64,000 bases of DNA from an uncultured Flavobacteriaceae bacterium (GTDB lineage Bacteria > Bacteroidota > Bacteroidia > Flavobacteriales > Flavobacteriaceae). The translations under genes and the position numbers were made by a program. Shown here piece by piece: positions 33,958 through 47,959 of the stretch (position 1 is the first letter of the stretch; each line of letters starts with the position of its first letter). The stretch covers positions 434,001-498,000 of the forward strand of contig CALSUF010000001.1 in assembly GCA_943789465.1 (NCBI GenBank). The letters are read 5' to 3'. The notes beneath the pieces are model-generated. The model saw nothing but the letters and a program-made list of their open reading frames with translations, searched no databases and was not told where the DNA came from.

Positions 33958-34031
33958 GGGGATGTAGCTCAGTTGGCTAGAGCGCTTGACTGGCAGTCAA
34001 GAGGTCGTCGGTTCGAATCCGATCTTCTCCA
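33958..34031 (+). tRNA. tRNA-Ala (anticodon GGC)
   Basis: The sequence folds into a full cloverleaf: acceptor GGGGATG with CTTCTCC, D-arm GCTC..GAGC, anticodon stem CTTGA/TCAAG with loop CTGGCAG (anticodon GGC), T-arm GTCGG/CCGAT with loop TTCGAAT. The acceptor contains the G3-U70 pair that identifies alanine tRNAs, and A73 follows. One U6-U67 mismatch is present. CCA is not encoded. It is the only intact tRNA in the window. Confidence 0.9.
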
Positions 34032-34291: not shown

Positions 34292-34474
34292 AAAATTGTA
34301 TTTTCGTTGAAGTATCAAGAACGCTTAGGCGTACCAACCGACAAATTCGATGCACGGTGGTTTAGAATGCGGGAACTCTCCAAAATAATCGAGTATACCA
34401 TATCTTATCCTTGTTGCAATATATTAAATAATCAATTATTAAAACAGAAACAATGGACCAGAAGACGTATTTAA
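34277..34474 (+). pseudogene. Unplaced ORF remnant without a start codon
   Basis: A frame open from 34277 to the TAA at 34472-34474 contains a protein-like stretch, RLGVPTDKFDARWFRMRELS, with balanced composition and codon use but no suitable start codon. Its end overlaps the next gene in another frame. It looks like a fragment left by a deletion or element excision next to the tRNA. I cannot name the family. Confidence 0.25.
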
Positions 34475-37881: not shown

Positions 37882-40182
37882 TTATTCCCCTTCATCACTA
37901 ATCTTCGCTGGTTTTACACTGCTGTCATATTCCGTATGGTATTCTTCTAGCAAGCCTGTTGTAGCGTTCAACAAGTCTTTAGTCTCTAATAACAAACTAA
38001 AGTAAAGCGTTGTGTTTTTTGGGCTTGATTCCTCAGTACGCGTTCGTTGTACTTGTGTCTCAATATTAGATTTAAGAATCGCATAGATTTTACTTTTTTG
38101 TTCAATAATCGATCCTATTTTTTCAAATGATTGTGAGTTAAAGGTGTCGATCGCCTCAGAAAACAATTGTTGTATTGAATCATTGATTTGACTTAGTTCT
38201 TTAATTTGATTGAACTTCAGTTTTTTGTGGTTATTATGAACATGCTTGTGACTTACTTTCGTAATATAGGTCAAAGATTGCGTCATGTCCTGAAGGTAAC
38301 CTAAAATAAGAATGTAAAAATTACTAGCACCCACACTTGATTCATCTAAATTTTTGATAAAGTAAAAAACATTATCTCTTAATTCATCAACTTCATCGGA
38401 GAGTTTAATAATTTGCTTTTTATTCTTTTTAAGAGCGTCTAAGTCTTGTTGAGCAAGACCGTTGAATGCTGCAGCATAAATTTTCTTTCCACGCTTTAAA
38501 ACGTTTGCAATATTTTCTGCACTTTCTATAATAACCCCTTGAACAGAACTACTCTCTGTTTTTTTCAAACGGTCATCTGAAGCTAATTCTTGTGTCTTTT
38601 TTCTATGAACAATAGAACTTCTTACAAGCAATGCAATTGCAGTTAAAAGAAGTATCGGAAACATCACTTCTAAGTTCAAGTTTAGCAAGTAGGCAACCAA
38701 AGCTGCTGCGCTAAATGCACTAAAGGCTGTAAAAAACCATCCGCCAATAACATTAAGTACTCCAGCAACACGATATACGGCACTTTCTGCACCCCAAGCT
38801 CTATCTGCTAACGATGTTCCCATAGCAACCATAAAGGTCACATAGGTTGTAGAAAGTGGTAATTTGTAGGAAGTTGCTATGGATATTAAAACGGCTGCCA
38901 CCATAAGGTTTACCGCTGCTCTAACCAAGTCAAAAGCAGGCAATTCGTGTATTTTATTTTTAGTTAATTTGATGACAGGTTGTTCAAATTGCTGTTCAAT
39001 CTTTTCTTGCCAAGACATTGGTAAAATAAAAGCCGATACTTTTGAAGCACCCATTGCAATTCTCACAAATCCACGTGACAATGTATTAGGTTGAAAACGT
39101 TCTTTTGTTTCACCTTGACTAGATAAGTCCAATGATGTTTTTACAACATCTTTTGCTTTAGCAGAAAACCATAAGGTCACTACCATTACCATACCAGCGC
39201 CAAATAATAACCAGTTGTTTGTAGGGACTTTAGAGGCCAAAACATCCATTGGGAACTCTGTTGCTGAAAGACCGGACGCGGACCATTCTAAGAACGCATT
39301 ATAGGCAGCCACTGGCACACCAATAAAGTTAACAAGGTCATTTCCTGCAAAGGCTAGTGCCAATGCAAATGTTCCTACAATAATAATCAGCTTATAAATA
39401 TTTGTTTTTGCGAACACAATCAATCCATATGACAATAAAGACCAGAACACTGAACTTATCAATACAATCGTTAGAACTTGCGTTTCCAAGAAATCTTTTA
39501 CGGTACTACCTCCAATAATATCAAACGATTGTTTGGCGTAAGAGGTTCCTTTGAGCCCTTTCATAAATATAAAATAGGTAATCGCAGTCAATGCAATACC
39601 ACTAAAAAGAGCACCTACCCAATTTGCTTTTCTTTGAAAATTATAAGATAACAACAGTCGAGACACCCATTGTACGAGAGCTCCAATGGAGAAAGCAACC
39701 ACTACCGATAGAAGTATCCCAAATATAATTTGAGAGGCTTTTGAGGTATTTATGTAGTTGACAACTTCACTAAAATCACCACCACTTGCACCAATTTTAA
39801 TTAAAGCCATTGCAACCGCAGCACCTAATAATTCAAATACAATTGAAACAGTTGTTGAGGTTGGCATTCCTAGCGAGTTAAAGAAATCTAGAAGTAAAAT
39901 ATCTGTAATCATGACCGCCATGAAAATAATCATGATCTCATTGAACATAAATTCACCGGGGTTAAAAATTCCTTTTCGGGCAACTTCCATCATACCACTC
40001 GAAAAAATTGCTCCTACAGCAACGCCAATACTAGCAACAATCATAATCGTTTTGAACGAAATCGCTTTGGAACCTATTGCTGAGTTTAAAAAATTTACAG
40101 CATCATTACTAATTCCAACGACTAAATCTGCAATAGCCAAGAAGGCTAAAGCAATAATCATATACAAATAAATATTTTCCAT
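37882..40182 (-). CDS. PiT-family inorganic phosphate transporter with PhoU-like tail
   Basis: The 766-residue product is a phosphate:cation symporter of the inner membrane. It has the two PiT repeats (AIADLVVGISNDAVNFLNSAIGSKA and FAGNDLVNFIGVPVAAYNAFL), about 11 spans, a cytosolic loop, and a C-terminal region (about residues 540-750, GVIIESAENIANVLKRGKK, LDALKKNKKQIIKLSDEVDEL) that resembles the helical PhoU/DUF47 proteins which regulate PiT transporters. Here the regulator-like part is fused. Classical PiT proteins are about 400-500 residues. It follows the phosphate-selective porin by 69 bp. Confidence 0.9.
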   Translation of the reverse strand: MENIYLYMIIALAFLAIADLVVGISNDAVNFLNSAIGSKAISFKTIMIVASIGVAVGAIFSSGMMEVARKGIFNPGEFMFNEIMIIFMAVMITDILLLDFFNSLGMPTSTTVSIVFELLGAAVAMALIKIGASGGDFSEVVNYINTSKASQIIFGILLSVVVAFSIGALVQWVSRLLLSYNFQRKANWVGALFSGIALTAITYFIFMKGLKGTSYAKQSFDIIGGSTVKDFLETQVLTIVLISSVFWSLLSYGLIVFAKTNIYKLIIIVGTFALALAFAGNDLVNFIGVPVAAYNAFLEWSASGLSATEFPMDVLASKVPTNNWLLFGAGMVMVVTLWFSAKAKDVVKTSLDLSSQGETKERFQPNTLSRGFVRIAMGASKVSAFILPMSWQEKIEQQFEQPVIKLTKNKIHELPAFDLVRAAVNLMVAAVLISIATSYKLPLSTTYVTFMVAMGTSLADRAWGAESAVYRVAGVLNVIGGWFFTAFSAFSAAALVAYLLNLNLEVMFPILLLTAIALLVRSSIVHRKKTQELASDDRLKKTESSSVQGVIIESAENIANVLKRGKKIYAAAFNGLAQQDLDALKKNKKQIIKLSDEVDELRDNVFYFIKNLDESSVGASNFYILILGYLQDMTQSLTYITKVSHKHVHNNHKKLKFNQIKELSQINDSIQQLFSEAIDTFNSQSFEKIGSIIEQKSKIYAILKSNIETQVQRTRTEESSPKNTTLYFSLLLETKDLLNATTGLLEEYHTEYDSSVKPAKISDEGE

Positions 40183-40251: not shown

Positions 40252-41457
40252 TTAAAAATGAATATCAAATCCAAGTCTAAAGGTGATGTTATCTTTTTGA
40301 CCATCCAATGTAGTATAACTCAGATCACTTTGAACTTTCAGTTTATGTCCCACAAGAAATCTATTGAACCCTAATGTATACTGTTTTGAAGGAAGTGTTT
40401 CTGTAATTGTTTCGTAATCTAAAGTCGTAAAACGCCCAGCAATTTCGTAATTGTTTTTAAATAAGTATCCAGCCTGTAGATTCAAAGCATTTCCTGTCAA
40501 TACAATATCACCTGTTGGCGTTACCCCGTCTGCTTCTGTTGCTATGACAGTATCTGCCGTCCGTTTGGCATATTCACCCATAAATGAAAACCCATTCTTT
40601 TTGTACATTGCATCTACAAAAATTGTCGTTTGGTTGGTTTCAAAAATAGTTTCATCGGTTCTGATCATGTAATCCCCAGCAAAGCCACGCTCACGAACTG
40701 CATTTTCATTAAAGTTGTAAGTAAATCCAACCATTAATTTTGATGTTGCTTCCCTTTTTAAATCAGACTGACTGTAATCGCCTTTGGACTTAAAGGCTCC
40801 AAAAGGTAAAAACTCTAGTCGTGCTGTGTATTGTAGTCCACCTTCATTTCCTTCTGTTACGTTACGACCTTCTCCTTGTGATATGGCAAATTTTTCGCGC
40901 ATTAAAAACGCACCACCTAAGTTTGATTTGTGACGAATTTGGATTCCTAAATCGCGATCAATATTGAATCGACTGTTTAATAAAGAACGATCAATCAACT
41001 GCAAATTTGCAGAAGATACCACACGTTCCACATTTCCAGGTAGTTTTGTTTGTCCAGCCCAAAGCTCCCAGTTTTTTGAAAATCTCCACATAATTACGGC
41101 ATCTAAAATATAACGCGGGGTATTTCGATTAAACTCGTTAGCGCCAGAAATATCTCTATTGGATAACCCCAATTCTAGTTTGTATTTTAATTTTGGACTG
41201 TACGCAAATCCGTCAAACTTTAAACGTGAACGACGTACAATAAAATTATGTTCTGGACTGGTGTATTGGTTACCGTCATGATCCCAAGAAGACATAGAAC
41301 GCACTTGGAAACGTGGCGCAAATTTAACACTAAATGAGCTGTCTTTTGCTACGAAATTGATCAGTCCTTTTCCAAAGGAAGTATCACTGATTTCTTGAGA
41401 TTGTACTGAAGTGATTGCAAATAATGTTATTGCAAGAGATAAAATTCTTAATTTCAT
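40252..41457 (-). CDS. Phosphate-selective porin (OprO/OprP family)
   Basis: The 401-residue outer-membrane beta-barrel has a signal peptide (KLRILSLAITLFAITSVQSQ) and the OprO/P pattern: FVAKDSSFSVKFAPRFQVRS, FIVRRSRLKFDGFAYSPKLKYKLEL, IMWRFSKNWELWAGQTKLPGN, ending NITFRLGFDIHF. In Pseudomonas these porins are induced by phosphate starvation. It lies directly in front of the PiT transporter. Its leader holds a PHO-box-like repeat and a long inverted repeat. Confidence 0.9.
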   Translation of the reverse strand: MKLRILSLAITLFAITSVQSQEISDTSFGKGLINFVAKDSSFSVKFAPRFQVRSMSSWDHDGNQYTSPEHNFIVRRSRLKFDGFAYSPKLKYKLELGLSNRDISGANEFNRNTPRYILDAVIMWRFSKNWELWAGQTKLPGNVERVVSSANLQLIDRSLLNSRFNIDRDLGIQIRHKSNLGGAFLMREKFAISQGEGRNVTEGNEGGLQYTARLEFLPFGAFKSKGDYSQSDLKREATSKLMVGFTYNFNENAVRERGFAGDYMIRTDETIFETNQTTIFVDAMYKKNGFSFMGEYAKRTADTVIATEADGVTPTGDIVLTGNALNLQAGYLFKNNYEIAGRFTTLDYETITETLPSKQYTLGFNRFLVGHKLKVQSDLSYTTLDGQKDNITFRLGFDIHF

Positions 41458-41501
41458 TATAGTATAATATTAGTTTTTGTCGGGTACAAATAACACAAAC
41501 T

Positions 41502-41519
41502 AATGTTATCTTAATGTTT
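41502..41519 (-). promoter_or_regulatory. PHO-box-like direct repeat ahead of the porin
   Basis: AATGTTA (41502-41508), 4-bp spacer and AATGTTT (41513-41519) repeat with an 11-bp period, the geometry of E. coli PHO boxes though not their sequence. It lies 45 bp upstream of the porin ATG. Confidence 0.4.
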
Positions 41520-41539
41520 CCTAAAGATTAAGATTGAAT

Positions 41540-41712
41540 GAAAAAAAAGCTGCCTGGCCAAGGGCAGCTTATCAGAAATCATTATTTTCTAGTCGACAAA
41601 AACTAATATGTAATAATGATACTAATTAAGTGTCTTAGACATTACAAAGATTGTAATTAATCATGTCCCATGCGTAAGGAAAACGTTAAGTAATTATTAA
41701 ACGTGAGTCAAT
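41540..41712 (-). ncRNA. Candidate regulatory RNA or attenuated leader of the porin gene
   Basis: A consensus minus-strand promoter (41717-41745) and a strong terminator (41541-41570) define a transcript of about 170 nt with no meaningful reading frame. Inside are ATTACAA-AGA-TTGTAAT (41641-41657), GTCTTAGAC (41632-41640) and the 16-nt arm at 41594-41609 that is complementary to the porin leader. It may be an independent small RNA or the prematurely terminated leader of the porin-PiT operon. It matches no riboswitch class I know. Confidence 0.5.
41541..41570 (-). terminator. Terminator of the candidate RNA
   Basis: AAGCTGCC (41548-41555) and GGCAGCTT (41563-41570) form an 8-bp stem with a 7-nt loop; a T-run of eight follows on the minus strand. 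It lies upstream of, not after, the porin gene. Confidence 0.8.
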
Positions 41713-41716
41713 ACTG

Positions 41717-41745
41717 CAAAAGTAAATTTTCGGCTTTTTAACCAA
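41717..41745 (-). promoter_or_regulatory. Promoter of the candidate RNA
   Basis: Minus-strand TTTTGG (TTG at 41745-41743), an 18-bp spacer and TACTTTTG (41724-41717) fit the Bacteroidota promoter consensus. The nearest gene in this direction starts 260 bp away, beyond a terminator. Confidence 0.7.
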
Positions 41746-41898
41746 AATAGATGCTGAGTTATAAAATCAACTAGTATTGATTCATTGATATTGCTATTTT
41801 ATTTAAATGCAACAGCTCAATACACAGGTTTTAAGAAGGTATAGCGCTCAAATTAGTATGCTTAGAACTCTTTATTATTTTTGAAATTCAAACCCTCC

Positions 41899-41916
41899 AA
41901 TGTTAATTTAATGTAA
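41899..41916. promoter_or_regulatory. PHO-box-like direct repeat upstream of the YwqK-like gene
   Basis: AATGTTA (41899-41905), ATTT, AATGTAA (41910-41916): 11-bp period. A further TTTAATGTAAAT follows at 41929-41940. It could serve the plus-strand gene at 41986. Confidence 0.35.
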
Positions 41917-41985
41917 ACTAATTATTGATTTAATGTAAATTTTGTGTATTTTTATACTATAATCAAGAACACAATACGCACTATT

Positions 41986-42345
41986 ATGAAAAAATATATA
42001 TTCATCGCACTAGTTTTTATCGGAATAGCAGCATATGCTCAAACTTCAATACAACCAAAATTTGAGGTTGAAGCCAATGTAATTTCAGCGACCTATTTTC
42101 ATGATAATGGAGCAATTCAACAGCAGGGTACTTTTAATAAAAAAGGAAAGCTAGATGGTCTATGGATAAGCTATAATGATAATGGCGTAAAATTATCTCA
42201 GGGTAATTATGATAAAGGAATCAAAACAGGGAAGTGGTTTTTCTGGACTGAAAATTCCTTAAAGGAAGTTGATTATAATGATTCTAGAATCACAAATGTT
42301 AATGAATGGAATAGTAAATCTGAGCTTGCTACCACTCTTAAATAA
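41986..42345 (+). CDS. YwqK/MORN-repeat-like secreted protein
   Basis: The 119-residue product starts at the ATG at 41986 (signal peptide KKYIFIALVFIGIAAYAQ). The mature part holds MORN/YwqK-type repeats (ATYFHDNGAIQQQGTFNKKGKLDGLWISY, GVKLSQGNYDKGIKTGKWFFW). In Bacteroidota these are often labelled YwqK antitoxin-like, but they are exported here and no toxin gene adjoins. Function unknown. It lies among phosphate-uptake genes and has a PHO-box-like repeat upstream. Confidence 0.75.
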   Translation: MKKYIFIALVFIGIAAYAQTSIQPKFEVEANVISATYFHDNGAIQQQGTFNKKGKLDGLWISYNDNGVKLSQGNYDKGIKTGKWFFWTENSLKEVDYNDSRITNVNEWNSKSELATTLK

Positions 42346-42422: not shown

Positions 42423-43542
42423 TTACTCTGACCATCCGCTAGCCCAATTTGGAATATCTGCACCATTCCCTGCTCCTGCGGCTCCTGAGTTTAATCCGTC
42501 ATAGGCATAGCCACCCCAGCTCCAGTCTGAAGGTGCATTTACATAATTAAAATTACTAATCACTAAGTCCCCGTTAGCTAATCGTGTATTTGCTGCAGCA
42601 TCCGTACTTTTTATTTTCATTCCTAAAGAAATACCATCAACATATATGTTCGCATAAGAAATATTTCCGCCACCCTCTTTGAAATAAATGGCACCTTCGG
42701 AGTTTCCTAAACCATCAACAACCATTGTGACATTTGATACTGTAGCCGAGGTCACTGGAGTTGCATCTCCGTTATCGCCATTATTTGAGCCCTCTATTCC
42801 GGCTTTTGTAATGCCTTTGATATATGCACCCTCAATAGAGCCCACAAAACCATCTGCAAAATCAATAGAATCATCGCCAGAATTAATAGAGACTAGATTT
42901 TTAGCATTTACAGCGCCTCCAAAAAATTCAATCCCATCATCGCCACCATTTACGGAAGAGACATTTGAAAAGGTTGTTCCAGAGCCCACTCCAAATAAAG
43001 TCACGCCATTAAATTCTTTTTCATTGGTAAATGTAGCTCCTGTATATTCAACTCTTAAATAAGTAACAACCCCTGAATTATCCGAATTATCAGAACCTCC
43101 ATACGTCAAATCTCCAACTTCAGAAGTTACGTTGGTTCCTGCATTTGTAATGCCATATCCAGCGATTGCCAATCCACCCCATGAGCCTGCTTCTTGAGTT
43201 TCAGAAGTCATAACTACTGGTGCCGTTGCCGTTCCATTGATGTATATTTTAGCACCACGCTCTCACTCCAATATACGCAGACGTTGAGGTGCCGGCTGCA
43301 GCTGTAATTGTGGTGCCTGCTGGAATCGTCAACACAGCTCCTTCTTTTACGATCAGTGCGCCGGTAAGAATATAAGTCTCAGAAGCATTTAATGAAACAC
43401 TTCCACTAGTAATGTTGCCTTGTAAATCGCCTGCATTTACTTGAAAACCAGCAACGGTATTTTCTGTAGTAGATTCTTCGATACTACAACTAAGCGCAAA
43501 TAACGCAGTAAAAATGGAAAGACTTAAATTTATTTTTTTCAT
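42423..43542 (-). pseudogene. Beta-helix surface lipoprotein, one frameshift
   Basis: Two frames together encode one roughly 373-residue protein. The first (from 43542) has a lipoprotein signal (INLSLSIFTALFALSCS) and GALIVKEGAVLTIPAGTTI; it stops soon after YIGV. The second continues ARIYING-type sequence into PVVMTSETQEAGSWGGLAI and right-handed beta-helix repeats (GVTLFGVGSGTTFSNV, GGDDGIEFFGGAVNAKNL). Removing one base near 43263 joins them, and the 1120-nt span equals 373 codons plus one base. Such proteins are typically encoded next to TonB receptors, as here. It may be intact if the extra base is an error. Confidence 0.75.
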
Positions 43543-43635
43543 TTTATTTTATGTTTTGATTTATACAAATATCTAATGATAATTGGGTTTGAGCTTTAAC
43601 TAAAAGTTACGAGTTGATTAGATTTACTGAAATTA

Positions 43636-43653
43636 ATTGTAAACTAAATGTTA
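43636..43653 (-). promoter_or_regulatory. PHO-box-like repeat upstream of the beta-helix gene
   Basis: ATTGTAA (43636-43642), ACTA, AATGTTA (43647-43653): 11-bp period, in the 126-bp gap between the TonB receptor gene and the beta-helix gene. The first half is the less well matched. Confidence 0.3.
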
Positions 43654-43668
43654 GCAACCTGTTCTAAT

Positions 43669-46441
43669 TTAAAATCGAAACCCAACAGACAAACTGATGT
43701 TAACGCCTCTCTTAAATTCACTTAAGGTCACTTCACTAATTCCTGGAGTTTCATACACTTCTTGAACCCTTTTAATAGAAGGGTTTAATAGGTTTTTTAC
43801 AGACAGATGAAAAGTTGAGGTTTTTAAGTTTACTTTTAATAATTAAATCCAAAGTATTAAAACTTTTGTCGATCACATTTCCTTTTTTTAGAGTTCCAAT
43901 AGTATTTAATTGATCAGAAAAATAATTGTAAGCCAATGTGGTTTGTAAAGAATGATCTTTATCAAATGCTTTAAAATAAGTAAGGTCTGTATTTACCAAT
44001 ACATCTGAAGCTCCAGTTAGTTTACTAGAATCAAAAGTGAAACTGGCACTGTATTCGGTTTCAGCATTCACTTTTTCAGCATTCAAATCTTGGGACGTTT
44101 TGATTAGTGATACGTTTAATCCCCCAGAAAGTTTTGTGATCAAATTCAGCTTCCTCCCCCTTAAAATTAAAAAGCTCTTTTTTGAGTTCTACTTCTAAAC
44201 CAAACACTTCTGCTTTATCTCCTGAGTTGATATAGGAAATATCATTTGAAGTAGAATTTATAAAAATAGAGTTGATTGGGTTTTGGATTAACTTTCCAAA
44301 AACGGTTGCAGAAATTAGTTCTCCATTTGAAGGAAAAAACTCCCACTTCAAATCTGCATTCCAGTTAGTGGATTCATAAATATCTTTATTTCCTCTATAG
44401 ACTTGTGTAACCTCTTCATAAAGCATATCTACACGTTCCTTAAATTGAGGGAGTGTATAGGTTTTACTGGCGCCAAATTTCAAATTCATATTTTCTTTAA
44501 GCACATACTTTGTCGAAAGAGATGGCAACAATTTTTTTTGTATGAGACCAATCCTTTGTTTGTTAGAAGACTGTAGTGTTAAGTAGTCAATTTCCACCCC
44601 AATCATTTCGGCTCTAACGCCGGCAACTACAGAAAATTTTGAAGAAAAATTCCATAAACCGTTCACATATCCAGCATTAATATATTGACCCCCACTATAC
44701 GTTTGAGTTTTTAAAGTATTGATTCTGTAAAGCGTATTTAAATTTGAAGCATTAAAAAATGCATCAAAATTTGTGATGTCAACATTGTAAAGTCCTGCCT
44801 GGTTAATCAGTCTAAAGTCATACTGTTGAGATGAAAAATCAATCCTTTTGAAACGACCGCTATACCCAAAAGTAAGTTTGCCTTTCAAGTCATCTTCACT
44901 ATCATTAAATTTAATTTCATCTGAAATATTAACAGAAAACTCATCTTCTTTTAAGTCCTGAAAAAAGCGGTGGTTATAAATTGGACTTCCTGTAATTAAA
45001 ACAAAATCAGTAGTGCGGTTCGCTCTAAAATCAGCTCCTGCGGTATTTTGCATTCGATCAGGAATAGTGTTGTTTAAACCATTATATCCAACAATCCAAC
45101 GGATTGTATTGGTATCTGAAATGGCGTGCGTCTCCACTCAATTGATTGATTAGTAATTGTAGTCTCAGTAAACGTATTTCTTTGGATAAACCCAACCCCA
45201 TTTTCATTATTGGTAGCATCATTATCAAACTCAATGTCAAACCCACTATATTCATCATGACTTTGATCAGAACTATTTAAAAATAGGGTTGTAAAAGTCA
45301 ATTTGTGGTTGCTATTCATGCGATAATTAAGCACCCCCATTGCGGTAGTGTTTGTTGTATAGCTGTAACTGTCTTTATTAAAATCCTGTCGTGTATACCC
45401 ATCCGCTCCAATTTTCCCACGGTTTAGACCAGAATTAAAAGTGCTCGAGTTGTCAAACCCAACGGTAAAAAAGGCATTCAATCGGCCTTCTTCCCCTAAC
45501 TCAAACGATCTGCCACCGTTTATACTTAAACCGCCATTATATTTTAAATTAGATGTTTTTCTATTCCAACTAGATCCCCAATTGTTAGTATTTGAAGGAT
45601 TTGTAGGTGGATTTGCCGAGTAAAATCCACTAAAACTTGGTCCTTCTTGTAAGTAAAAGTTGTTAGATTCTAAGGTATTGGAATTGCCTCCAAAACTAAA
45701 CTTCACAGCTAAGTAAGGTTGTCCTGTAAAGTTTTTAGAATCTATATTAATATTTGCACCTCCAAAATCGCCATAATTTTTTGCATTAAAGGTTTTGCTT
45801 ACACCAATATTTTCTACGATATCTGTTGAGAATAATGATAAATCAATATTTTTTTGAGCCGCATTATTAGATGCTAGTGGAAGTCCATTGAGTGTTGTAA
45901 TGTTATAACGATCTCCAAGTCCTCTCACAAATACATTTCCTGATCCTGATTGTTTGGAAATCCCAGCGATTTTTGTAACGGCTCCAGCAATGGTTCCTAC
46001 TCCTTTTTTGCTTAGTTCTTGTGCTCCGATAGCCGTTTCCATAAGAACCGCTTTTTTTTGTTGGAGAAGCAAAGCGCTTTCTGTTTCACGTTTTTTGGTG
46101 GTTTTGATAATAACCTCTTCTAAAGCAGCACTATTTGCTTCCAGTACAACGTTAATTTCGTTTGTTACTCCCGCTTCAATCAGCGTTTCAATCTCTATGG
46201 TTTTGTAGCCCACAAAACTGAACACAACAGTATAAGTTCCTGGATCCAATAGTTCTAAACTATAAATACCGTCAAAATCTGAAGTGGTTCCTTTTGTAGT
46301 TCCCTTAATTAAAACATTAGCAAAAGCCAATGGCTCATTATTGAATTCTTTGTCTGTCAATTTTCCAGATACAGAGCCCGTATACTGAGCGCTAACAATT
46401 CCTGAAATAAATAAAATACAGATTAATAAAAAGCGTTTCAT
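43669..46441 (-). pseudogene. TonB-dependent receptor, three frameshifts
   Basis: Four overlapping frames encode one roughly 924-residue receptor. Frame one (46441 to about 45131) has a signal peptide (RFLLICILFISGIVSAQ), a CarboxypepD_reg-like domain (GKLTDKEFNNEPLAFANVLIKG) and the plug (VTKIAGISKQSGSGNVFVRGLGDRYN). The next frames carry the barrel (QYDFRLINQAGLYNVDI, FGASKTYTLPQFKERVDMLYE) and the last ends in RGVNISLSVGFRF, the expected C-terminus. Shifts lie near 45131 (one base lost), 44145 (one gained) and 43836 (one gained, in an A-run). The net +1 agrees with the 2773-nt length. Confidence 0.8.
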
Positions 46442-46616
46442 CGATTAATTTTAATTAATTATTAAGCTGCAAATCTAGCCTGAAACACCCCTTTTTTAGG
46501 TTACCCTACATTTATTTAAAGATTAATAGAACGTTATTTTAATTAATGTGAAGATAGATTTAAGCAACAATTAATTAACATTGAAATTACTATCTTGCAG
46601 GTTAATACCAGACACT

Positions 46617-47959
46617 ATGAATTGGGAACAATTACTCTCTTTAAAGCGCCAAGGAGACACCAACAAACGGCTTAGAAACGAGCAAGACGAAACCCGATTA
46701 GGGTTTGATGTTGATTACGATCGCATTATTTTTTCACCTGAATTTAGAAGTCTTCAAGATAAAACTCAAGTAGTACCCCTTTCATCAACGGACTTTGTAC
46801 ATACACGACTCACTCACAGTCTTGAAGTCAGTGTCGTTGCACGTTCTTTGGGAAGAAAAGCAGGTGTTAAAATTTTAGAGAAACACCCCTATCTAGCCGA
46901 AATACATGGCTATAAACCAAATGATTTTGGGGCGATTGTTGCAGCCGCAGCATTGGCACATGACATTGGAAACCCACCCTTTGGTCACTCCGGTGAAAAA
47001 GCTATTGGGCACTATTTTAAAAATGGATCTGGTCAAAAATTTAAAGCCCAACTCAACCCGAAAGAATACCAAGATTTATGTGATTTTGAGGGCAATGCAA
47101 ATGGCTTTAAAGTCTTAACTCAAGACAAACAAGGCAGGCACAAGGTGGACTCAGGCTGAGTTACGCCACTTTGGGAGCTTTTACAAAGTACCCAAAAGAA
47201 TCACTCCCTGTAAAACCAAATGCCCACATTGCATCTAAAAAGTATGGCTTTTTTCAAACTGAAAAAACACATTTTTTAGATGTAGCAAGCGAGTTGGGTT
47301 TAAACACACTTAGCGCTGAAAACGCACAATTTTCCAGACATCCCTTAGCCTTTTTAGTGGAAGCAGCAGATGATATTTGCTATACTATTATTGATTTTGA
47401 AGATGGGATCAACCTTGGGTTAATCGCGGAAGATTATGCCCTTGAATATTTAATTAATTTAGTAAGAGGGACCATCAATACCGAAAAATACAGTGCACTT
47501 AATTCTACAAAAGAACGCGTGAGTTATCTTAGGGCGTTGGCAATTAGCACCTTGATTGAGGACGCTGTCAATATATTTATGGCACACGAAAAAGAAATTC
47601 TTGAAGGTAAATTTCATGTTTCTATACTTGATAAAAGCAAATACCAAGCACAAATTAATGACATCATAAAACTCAGTATTGAGAAAATTTATAACTCAGA
47701 AGAAGTCATTGATAAAGAAATTTCTGGATTTGAAATTTTAAATCAACTCCTAGATCGATTTGTTTTGGCCGTTAATAATAATTATGAAAATGTACCTACA
47801 GCCTATGACAAACTATTGTTGAAACTTATTCCAGACGAGATAGATTTTCAAAATGATAGCCTTTACACAAGGTTGCTAAGTATATGCTATTTTGTGTCTT
47901 TATTTTCTGATACAAAAGCTGTTTTGACCTACAAAAAAATCAAAGGGCTGGCTTTTTAG
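46617..47959 (+). pseudogene. dgt: dGTP triphosphohydrolase, one frameshift
   Basis: Dgt hydrolyses dGTP to deoxyguanosine and tripolyphosphate. The first frame starts at the ATG at 46617 (MNWEQLLSLKRQGDTNKRLR) and carries the HD-domain motifs HTRLTHSLE and LAHDIGNPPFGHSGE. It stops at 47159. The second frame, from about 47147, continues LRLSYATLGAFTKYPKES and the rest of the protein to 47959. Restoring one G near 47145 (AAGGTGG to AAGGGTGG) gives the expected KGGLRLSYATLG. The span is one base short of 448 codons. Probably intact in the organism. Confidence 0.85.

Follow-up and report, generated by a model that had tools for sequence, protein, structure and literature searches.

In enterobacteria, the Hfq-dependent small RNAs (sRNAs) MicF, MicC and MicA pair near the start of porin mRNAs through short imperfect seeds and thereby limit porin synthesis, and their targets are mostly unlinked. 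In the Gram-positive Streptococcus pyogenes, FasX has one main target mRNA; it pairs with the very 5' end of this mRNA and stabilizes it. Few base-pairing sRNAs of Bacteroidetes have been worked out, and those we met come from Bacteroides or from Flavobacterium psychrophilum.

GibS of Bacteroides thetaiotaomicron is trans-encoded and conserved within Bacteroides; PMC7366714 describes pairing of its extended, unstructured 5' seed with the translation start regions of metabolic genes. The FopS family of the same species (PMC11697453) comprises 14 copies of ~65-70 nt that carry a 5' seed, are bound by RbpB and have many PUL targets; it base-pairs with the start region of SusC-type porin mRNA, and one member is derived from a 3' UTR. 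Both GibS and FopS exert repression at the start region of their targets. A structured sRNA, Rfp18, is known in F. psychrophilum, also a member of the Flavobacteriaceae. It is predicted to act on metalloprotease mRNAs and an adhesin, and the main text of the report (PMC9723704) contains neither "porin" nor "PhoB."

The locus analyzed here lies in a window of 64,000 nt (positions 434,001-498,000, forward strand, of contig CALSUF010000001.1, assembly GCA_943789465.1) from an uncultured Flavobacteriaceae bacterium. A sequence-only reading had proposed that a promoter and an intrinsic terminator enclose an ORF-free RNA of ~170 nt ahead of a porin and a PiT phosphate transporter, and that 16 nt of this RNA are complementary to the porin leader. 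The complementarity is exact: minus-strand 41609-41594 (ATATTAGTTTTTGTCG) is the perfect reverse complement of 41482-41467 (CGACAAAAACTAATAT), an arm that lies 9 nt before the porin ATG (41457) on the same strand. Domain matches bear out the porin-PiT order, no ORF of at least 60 aa overlaps the interval, and a scan found the one terminator, with 0.7 expected in shuffles (Table 1).

Table 1. Features of the sRNA-porin locus, in window coordinates
Feature	Position	Strand	Basis
sRNA of ~100 nt: hairpin 1 (41640-41632), seed hairpin (41626-41571) and terminator; 5' end predicted	41541..41640	-	R2 match, fold, covariation
Seed, complementary to the predicted 5' end of the porin mRNA	41594..41609	-	Covariation with target
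Apical hairpin UAGUU-UUUGUC-GACUA, bearing the seed	41590..41605	-	Model helix 5
sRNA terminator, intrinsic, with stem 41570-41547 and a T-run to 41541	41541..41570	-	Scan and covariation
Likely sRNA -7 element AATCTTTG	41645..41652	-	TTTG conservation
Likely sRNA promoter box, 11-nt direct repeats TTAATAATTAC-TTAACGTTTTC-CTTACGCATGG	41668..41700	-	Conserved repeats
Target arm CGACAAAAACTAATAT, where the porin mRNA is predicted to begin	41467..41482	-	Complementarity and conservation
Likely porin -7 element GTTATTTG; transcript start predicted near 41482	41487..41494	-	TTTG conservation
Porin promoter box, repeats AACATTAAGAT-AACATTAGTTT	41500..41529	-	Top matrix site
Further box between the sRNA and the divergent MORN_2 gene	41897..41926	-	Second-highest matrix site
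Phosphate-selective porin, target gene (PF07396, Porin_O_P)	40252..41457	-	E = 1.6e-13
PiT-type phosphate transporter (PF01384, PHO4/PiT), next gene	37882..40182	-	E = 1.7e-29

The proposed promoter (41745-41717, TTTTGG...TACTTTTG) is present as a sequence, presumably of the Bacteroidetes type, but not as a conserved element. Among 19 aligned loci, source included, its -7 part is conserved exactly in a single locus, L001; L002 departs from it at one position, L003, L004 and L006 show a longer, degenerate version, and by eye the other 14 lack it. The promoter is also missing from the output of a sigma-70 scan. Closer to the RNA, the pattern TTAA-N7-TTAA occurs within the preceding 110 nt at 85 of 115 loci versus 3.3% of random stretches, and TTTG occurs within the 40 nt just before the RNA at 97 of 115 loci versus 27%. 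In the window, the corresponding elements are three direct repeats, which we take to be a Pho-box-like box, and AATCTTTG, presumably a -7 element of the Bacteroidetes TAnnTTTG type. Judged by these patterns, the sRNA promoter is probably 41700-41645 rather than 41745-41717. The earlier promoter was thus probably set ~70 nt too far upstream, so that the RNA is likely to be nearer 100 nt than 170 nt in length. Two internal palindromes had also been pointed out. The one at 41640-41632 (GTCTAAGAC) recurs in relatives with changes on both sides, whereas that at 41657-41641, which overlaps the likely -7 element, is real as a sequence but by eye not conserved.

The RNA consists of a 5' hairpin (absent from the covariance model R2), a long seed hairpin tipped by UAGUU-UUUGUC-GACUA, with UAGUUUUUGUC at the tip, and the terminator. 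For the 171-nt RNA alone, folding gave z = -2.29, which 5 of 200 shuffles equaled or bettered. When extended through the porin start, the RNA folds at z = -5.06 (0 of 200 as good), and this read-through structure includes a 16-bp long-range stem between both arms.

A covariation analysis of the orthologous region in Flavobacteriaceae had been proposed as a check. Model R2, with 30 pairs, was made from a 20-sequence alignment with stems in register; it supersedes a first model, R1, which came from a MAFFT alignment with misaligned stems and was effectively a sequence profile. Over 100 loci, 103 R2 matches (including 4 secondary or opposite-strand ones) were aligned, giving 99 distinct rows. Pairing was found in 91.3% of cells versus 27-50% in slid controls, changes on both sides in 25 of the 30 model pairs, and 366 double-change cells versus 107 in shuffles (0 of 500 as many), figures that lean upwards because the model itself guided the alignment and the rows share ancestry, which the shuffles leave in place. 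All 11 pairs of the terminator stem show both-side change. The apical helix 5 (95.9% of cells paired) is nearly invariant and is therefore, by itself, little evidence for or against pairing. In a MAFFT alignment termed A2, 22 double-change cells were counted versus 6.0 in shuffles (0 of 500), and one of five measures, the number of further pair types, was not clear (58 of 500). Loss of the arms and the hairpin in close relatives would have spoken against the original observation, which withstood this check on sequence.

The interval had been said to match no known riboswitch. This is right as far as Rfam is concerned: the interval has no match at gathering score, a permissive search of it returned four rows, all far below that score, and 12 further loci (68,307 bases) yielded nothing. 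Elsewhere, the plus strand of the window carries a SAM-I/IV riboswitch (RF01725) at 34307-34397 and a tRNA at 33958-34031.

The RNA is conserved across much of the Flavobacteriaceae and usually resides just upstream of a phosphate-porin gene. A BLASTN search with 321 bases gave matches in 21 of 60 relatives, the match in G031 being one of 32 bases outside the leader. In an alignment of 19 loci from the RNA through the porin start (source included; L012, L021, L022 and L023 omitted from 23 loci), the seed TATTAGTTTTTGTCGACT and the arm CGACAAAAACTAATA are nearly invariant, and the box GGAAACATTAAGNTAACATTAG and the TTTG preceding the arm are more loosely conserved. A pattern with both exact arms detected at least 116 loci in genome contigs. 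The genera among the matches listed for this pattern are, we assume, Flavobacteriaceae, and a few titles give an order or class alone.

R2 matches were obtained in 149 of 397 Flavobacteriaceae genomes, source included (132 of 329 good-quality ones), a count that is neither clean nor complete, since it holds at least one false family match, weak matches were inspected in part, and 4 of 9 R2-negative genomes with a porin proved on inspection to have a copy; R1 had matched 129 of the 397. The match in the source genome is window 41627-41541 (minus). Most genomes have one R2 match, and G128, G180 and G194 have two. G180 (L236, L237; also L095) has two copies of sRNA plus arm, one of which precedes a truncated porin. 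In a sample of the phylum, R2 matched 5 of 247 genomes, 4 of them within the Flavobacteriaceae, source included. The single match outside the family (L296, in G454) was rejected as false because it lacks the seed, as was one inside the family (L276, in G185). In g146, neither the RNA nor a porin match was seen in the 3 genomes tested for the porin.

The complementary arm, GACAAAAACUAAUA, resides ~5-15 nt ahead of the Porin_O_P gene and directly after a conserved promoter-like element; thus, it is probably the 5' end of the mRNA. A tblastn porin hit starts 5-84 nt after the arm at 107 of the 116 loci with exact arms, and the distance is ~5-15 nt where the hit reaches residue 1. Seven more loci have a diverged porin that tblastn missed and that matches PF07396; of the remaining two, L079 is cut off where the fetched locus stops, and L095 is the second copy with the truncated porin. 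In L107, from a Lutibacter, PstS-like and PstC-like genes (names from reading the sequence) take the place of PiT after a diverged porin. The arm and promoter therefore stay while the porin differs. TTTG is positioned 3-5 nt ahead of the arm at 111 of 116 loci versus 2.6% at random positions. The porin mRNA should therefore start at or near the arm, with its 5' end predicted at or within ~2 nt of GACAAAAAC.

Twenty-two hand-picked R2-negative family genomes (among them G199, already R1-positive) were searched for the porin at E 1e-20, with no match in 13 and a match in 9. By eye, the 300 nt upstream of four of these porins contain both RNA and arm (L314, already an R1 match, L316, L317 and L320), and the other five have neither RNA nor a proper arm (L315, L318, L319, L321 and L322), so that arm and RNA are jointly present or jointly absent in all nine. 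L315 retains a decayed GATAAAACTAAA; the porins of L321 and L322 have 39-40% identity and may be another paralogue. Because L318 keeps the box and TTTGC and not the arm, the arm is more than a piece of the promoter.

Perfect matches to the seed region revealed no second conserved target. The 14-mer GACAAAAACTAATA occurs in the source genome once forward and once reverse (reversed control, 0). Outside the porin locus, it has 5 copies in 60 relatives versus 12 for the reversed control; the four viewed (L025, L036, L046 and L050) are in or near unrelated genes. Of these, the L025 copy precedes a peptidase-like ORF by 19 nt, in a genome where the RNA has no match. Copies of a 12-mer in 7 genomes likewise look scattered. 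G031 (L199) and G200 (L275) keep the RNA with an intact seed and have no porin beside it, PiT following directly; thus, the RNA may have another target in these organisms, or the porin may have been lost recently.

Since the 116-locus set was selected by exact arms, it was excluded from the statistics on arm covariation. The pairing test set was instead 67 loci found by the RNA models alone, with a target rule requiring the first letters GA[C/T][A/T]AA. Fifty-seven loci pass; those dropped are L276 and L296 (no seed), L199, L228 and L275 (no arm beside the RNA), L235 (contig end), L274 and L278 (arm 3 kb away), and L219 and L223 (arm missed by the rule). The sRNA-leader duplex averages -24.65 kcal/mol with the locus's own target versus -18.82 kcal/mol with swapped targets, and 0 of 5000 permutations reach the former value. 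The own duplex is better than the mean swapped value in 56 of 57 loci. At the sole failure, L207, the rule picked a downstream site, and the true leader pairs with a one-base bulge.

Counted by column over 51 distinct rows (L207 omitted), 667 of 714 seed-arm cells are paired, and 32 carry double changes versus 12.7 in shuffles that ignore kinship (0 of 1000). By eye, double changes occur in 11 genera (g13, g19, g51, g74, g82, g83, g93, g94, g170, g252 and g255). One is inside the core, where UUUUAGUC is paired with GACUAAAA (L294/L295); others combine UUACAG with CUGUAA (L284), UAAUCGUAAAG with CUUUAACGAUUA, with one bulge (L285), and CUUUG with CAAAG (L316). G-T pairs between the arms are tolerated. 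The complementarity between the seed and the porin mRNA is thus evolutionarily kept.

In most loci the RNA adjoins the porin. In G341 (a single contig), however, the RNA occupies 1374480-1374553 (-) and the porin gene 1370155-1371351 (-); they are separated by opposite-strand ORFs that by eye resemble a carbonic anhydrase, a SulP transporter and a small protein. The porin of G341 retains a box of its own, together with TTTGC and the arm (GACAAAAACTAAA). The arrangement recurs in G397, where RNA and porin are ~2.8 kb apart and the arm is likewise kept. The RNA typically has its own terminator and its own promoter-like element; in G341 and G397 it instead follows a lipoprotein gene related to window ORF 42423-43211 (35% identity). 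There the RNA match begins 15-20 nt after the stop codon, which suggests that the RNA is probably derived from the 3' UTR. G162, with the RNA on C108 and the porin on C107, was considered as a further separated case and dropped on account of its abnormal porin leader. On C107 (L240/L299), a long extra inverted repeat surrounds the arm near the contig end, possibly an assembly artefact or a rearrangement.

The sequence-only reading had offered two interpretations, a trans-acting sRNA and an attenuated leader. We consider it likely that the locus encodes a stand-alone sRNA of ~100 nt with one conserved target found, the porin mRNA, which it most likely represses as a feed-forward brake. The trans interpretation gains from the structural and seed-target covariation, from the co-occurrence of RNA and arm, and from the two separated loci, whose kept arms support pairing by a separate sRNA. 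For an attenuated leader, a single promoter would serve RNA and porin, and read-through past the terminator would allow the arms to fold the porin start shut. The long-range stem of the read-through RNA (z = -5.06) would suit such a device, as would the spacing of the arms, 112-141 nt in 116 loci, although the search pattern allowed 112-142 nt only. However, in G341 and G397, where ~3 kb with opposite-strand ORFs separates RNA and porin while the arm is kept, there is no simple common transcript, and attenuation is therefore unsupported as a general mechanism. A conserved promoter-like element between terminator and arm, the covarying conservation of the terminator itself, and an arm distance of 216 nt in G066 also argue against the leader, which we regard as quite improbable. 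At loci where the porin adjoins the RNA, a read-through transcript could nonetheless close on itself. If the arms were instead paired DNA-binding sites of a looping operator, their near-invariant 14 nt and inverted order would be accounted for, but not the RNA-like covariation of the hairpins around one of them, nor the tolerated G-T pairs and the double changes that preserve complementarity. Moreover, nearly every spacing from 118 to 141 nt occurs, and no helical phase is visible by inspection. An operator of this kind is scarcely credible.

That the sRNA represses its target is suggested by the position of the pairing. Bacteroidetes mRNAs lack a classical Shine-Dalgarno sequence and show an excess of adenines at -3, -6 and -11 to -15, according to PMC7366714. 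The loop UAGUUUUUGUC(G) would pair with the first 10-16 nt of the porin mRNA and, in several genera, a second pairing block (by eye) would extend almost to the AUG. The duplex would cover the A-rich stretch that Bacteroidetes ribosomes use in place of a Shine-Dalgarno sequence. Because the arm is an A-rich leader within the -3 to -15 zone, pairing should block initiation, and the porin mRNA would then decay. The main rival is stabilization, in which the same sRNA and the same pairing would shield the covered mRNA 5' end from decay and raise porin output, a mode for which FasX on ska mRNA is reportedly a precedent. Pairing that begins at the predicted first nucleotides of the mRNA, as the placement of TTTG before the arm in 111 of 116 loci implies, is compatible with shielding, and boxes of similar type before sRNA and porin would also fit a helper. 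Nevertheless, the duplex seems by eye to reach within a few nucleotides of the AUG in L285, L288 and L289, where it should hinder ribosomes, and the characterized Bacteroidetes sRNAs GibS and FopS repress via the start region (PMC7366714 and PMC11697453). A search for Hfq (PF17209) found it in 0 of 9 genomes, the control search having found Hfq in 5 of 14 known genomes, E. coli included; the sRNA is probably Hfq-independent. Pairing over the start zone, the GibS and FopS precedent, and the lack of an Hfq match together favor repression, and we judge activation to be unlikely.

The feed-forward aspect of the repression model stems from the promoters. Boxes of similar 11-bp repeats precede both the sRNA and the porin, which suggests that the two probably share a regulator, and PhoB would be the natural candidate, since 11-nt repeats are typical of PhoB sites. 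A weight matrix built from the porin boxes of 116 other loci was scanned over the 64-kb window. The porin box ranked first and the box behind the MORN_2 gene second, followed by one site before the lipoprotein gene and two overlapping sites between the TonB receptor and the dGTPase-like gene; these five top sites all lie in 41.5-46.6 kb. With this porin-box matrix, the sRNA's own box ranked tenth, which is background level. A strict form of the box pattern, searched in six genomes, marked no pst or phosphatase promoter; it hit the porin locus in three and otherwise scattered genes. The box was consequently rejected as a phosphate marker, and this search lends no support to PhoB. That PhoB governs both sRNA and porin is thus a hypothesis drawn from the repeats. 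In the phoBR cluster of Flavobacterium johnsoniae, a TonB receptor and a lipoprotein are strongly upregulated on phosphate depletion, and OprP of that cluster shows no significant change (PMC8115612), which may speak against the model.

The MORN_2-repeat gene, which encodes a secreted protein, is located at 41986-42345, divergent to the sRNA. Look-alikes adjoin the RNA in several other genomes, including those in which the porin is missing (L199) or lies in another place (L228). Farther along, in 42423-46441 and 46581-47959, the genes for the TonB-dependent receptor, the lipoprotein-like protein and the dGTPase-like protein are each split across frames. Several neighboring splits like these suggest assembly indels rather than real pseudogenes.

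The target mRNA opens a porin-PiT gene row, or a porin-pst row in a Lutibacter. Seed and arm having changed together in evolution, this RNA very probably serves specifically to control phosphate uptake. More speculatively, and with somewhat less than even confidence, we propose an Hfq-free, family-wide module in which the sRNA and its single target have a common box type, the loop fits the very start of the mRNA letter by letter, and the 3' end of a neighboring lipoprotein transcript can come to host the sRNA gene. If this is true, a co-induced lipoprotein mRNA would brake the porin mRNA.

Flavobacteriaceae are known for life in marine and soil habitats. What recommends the locus for study is that its target is clear and that its comparative record runs deep, with compensatory changes in both RNAs as well as natural losses. 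It opens testable questions about how an sRNA acts without Hfq, and about limiting an outer-membrane pore that phosphate shortage might switch on. Model R2 also lets the transcriptomes of many Flavobacteriaceae be read at the porin locus.

The main-text literature that we searched on sRNAs, porins and phosphate in Flavobacteriaceae and Bacteroidetes holds no description of this RNA. It adds to the known porin-targeting sRNAs, and no Rfam family covers it. Unlike Rfp18, with which it shares a structured form and the family of origin, it has a porin mRNA as its target. Compared with MicF, MicC and MicA, it has 10-20 bp of complementarity, mostly adjoins its target, and occurs where Hfq was not found in 9 genomes. 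What it has in common with FasX, judged by pairing position alone, is a single main target bound at the extreme 5' end of its mRNA. Like GibS, the flavobacterial RNA pairs at a translation start region, and like FopS it does so at that of a porin; in both of these the seed is an unstructured 5' segment, whereas here it is presented in the apical hairpin (helix 5). It further differs from FopS in being mostly single copy, in having one found target that is usually adjacent, and in its connection with phosphate uptake. Even so, the RNAs of G341 and G397 appear to be derived from a 3' UTR, as is one member of the FopS family.
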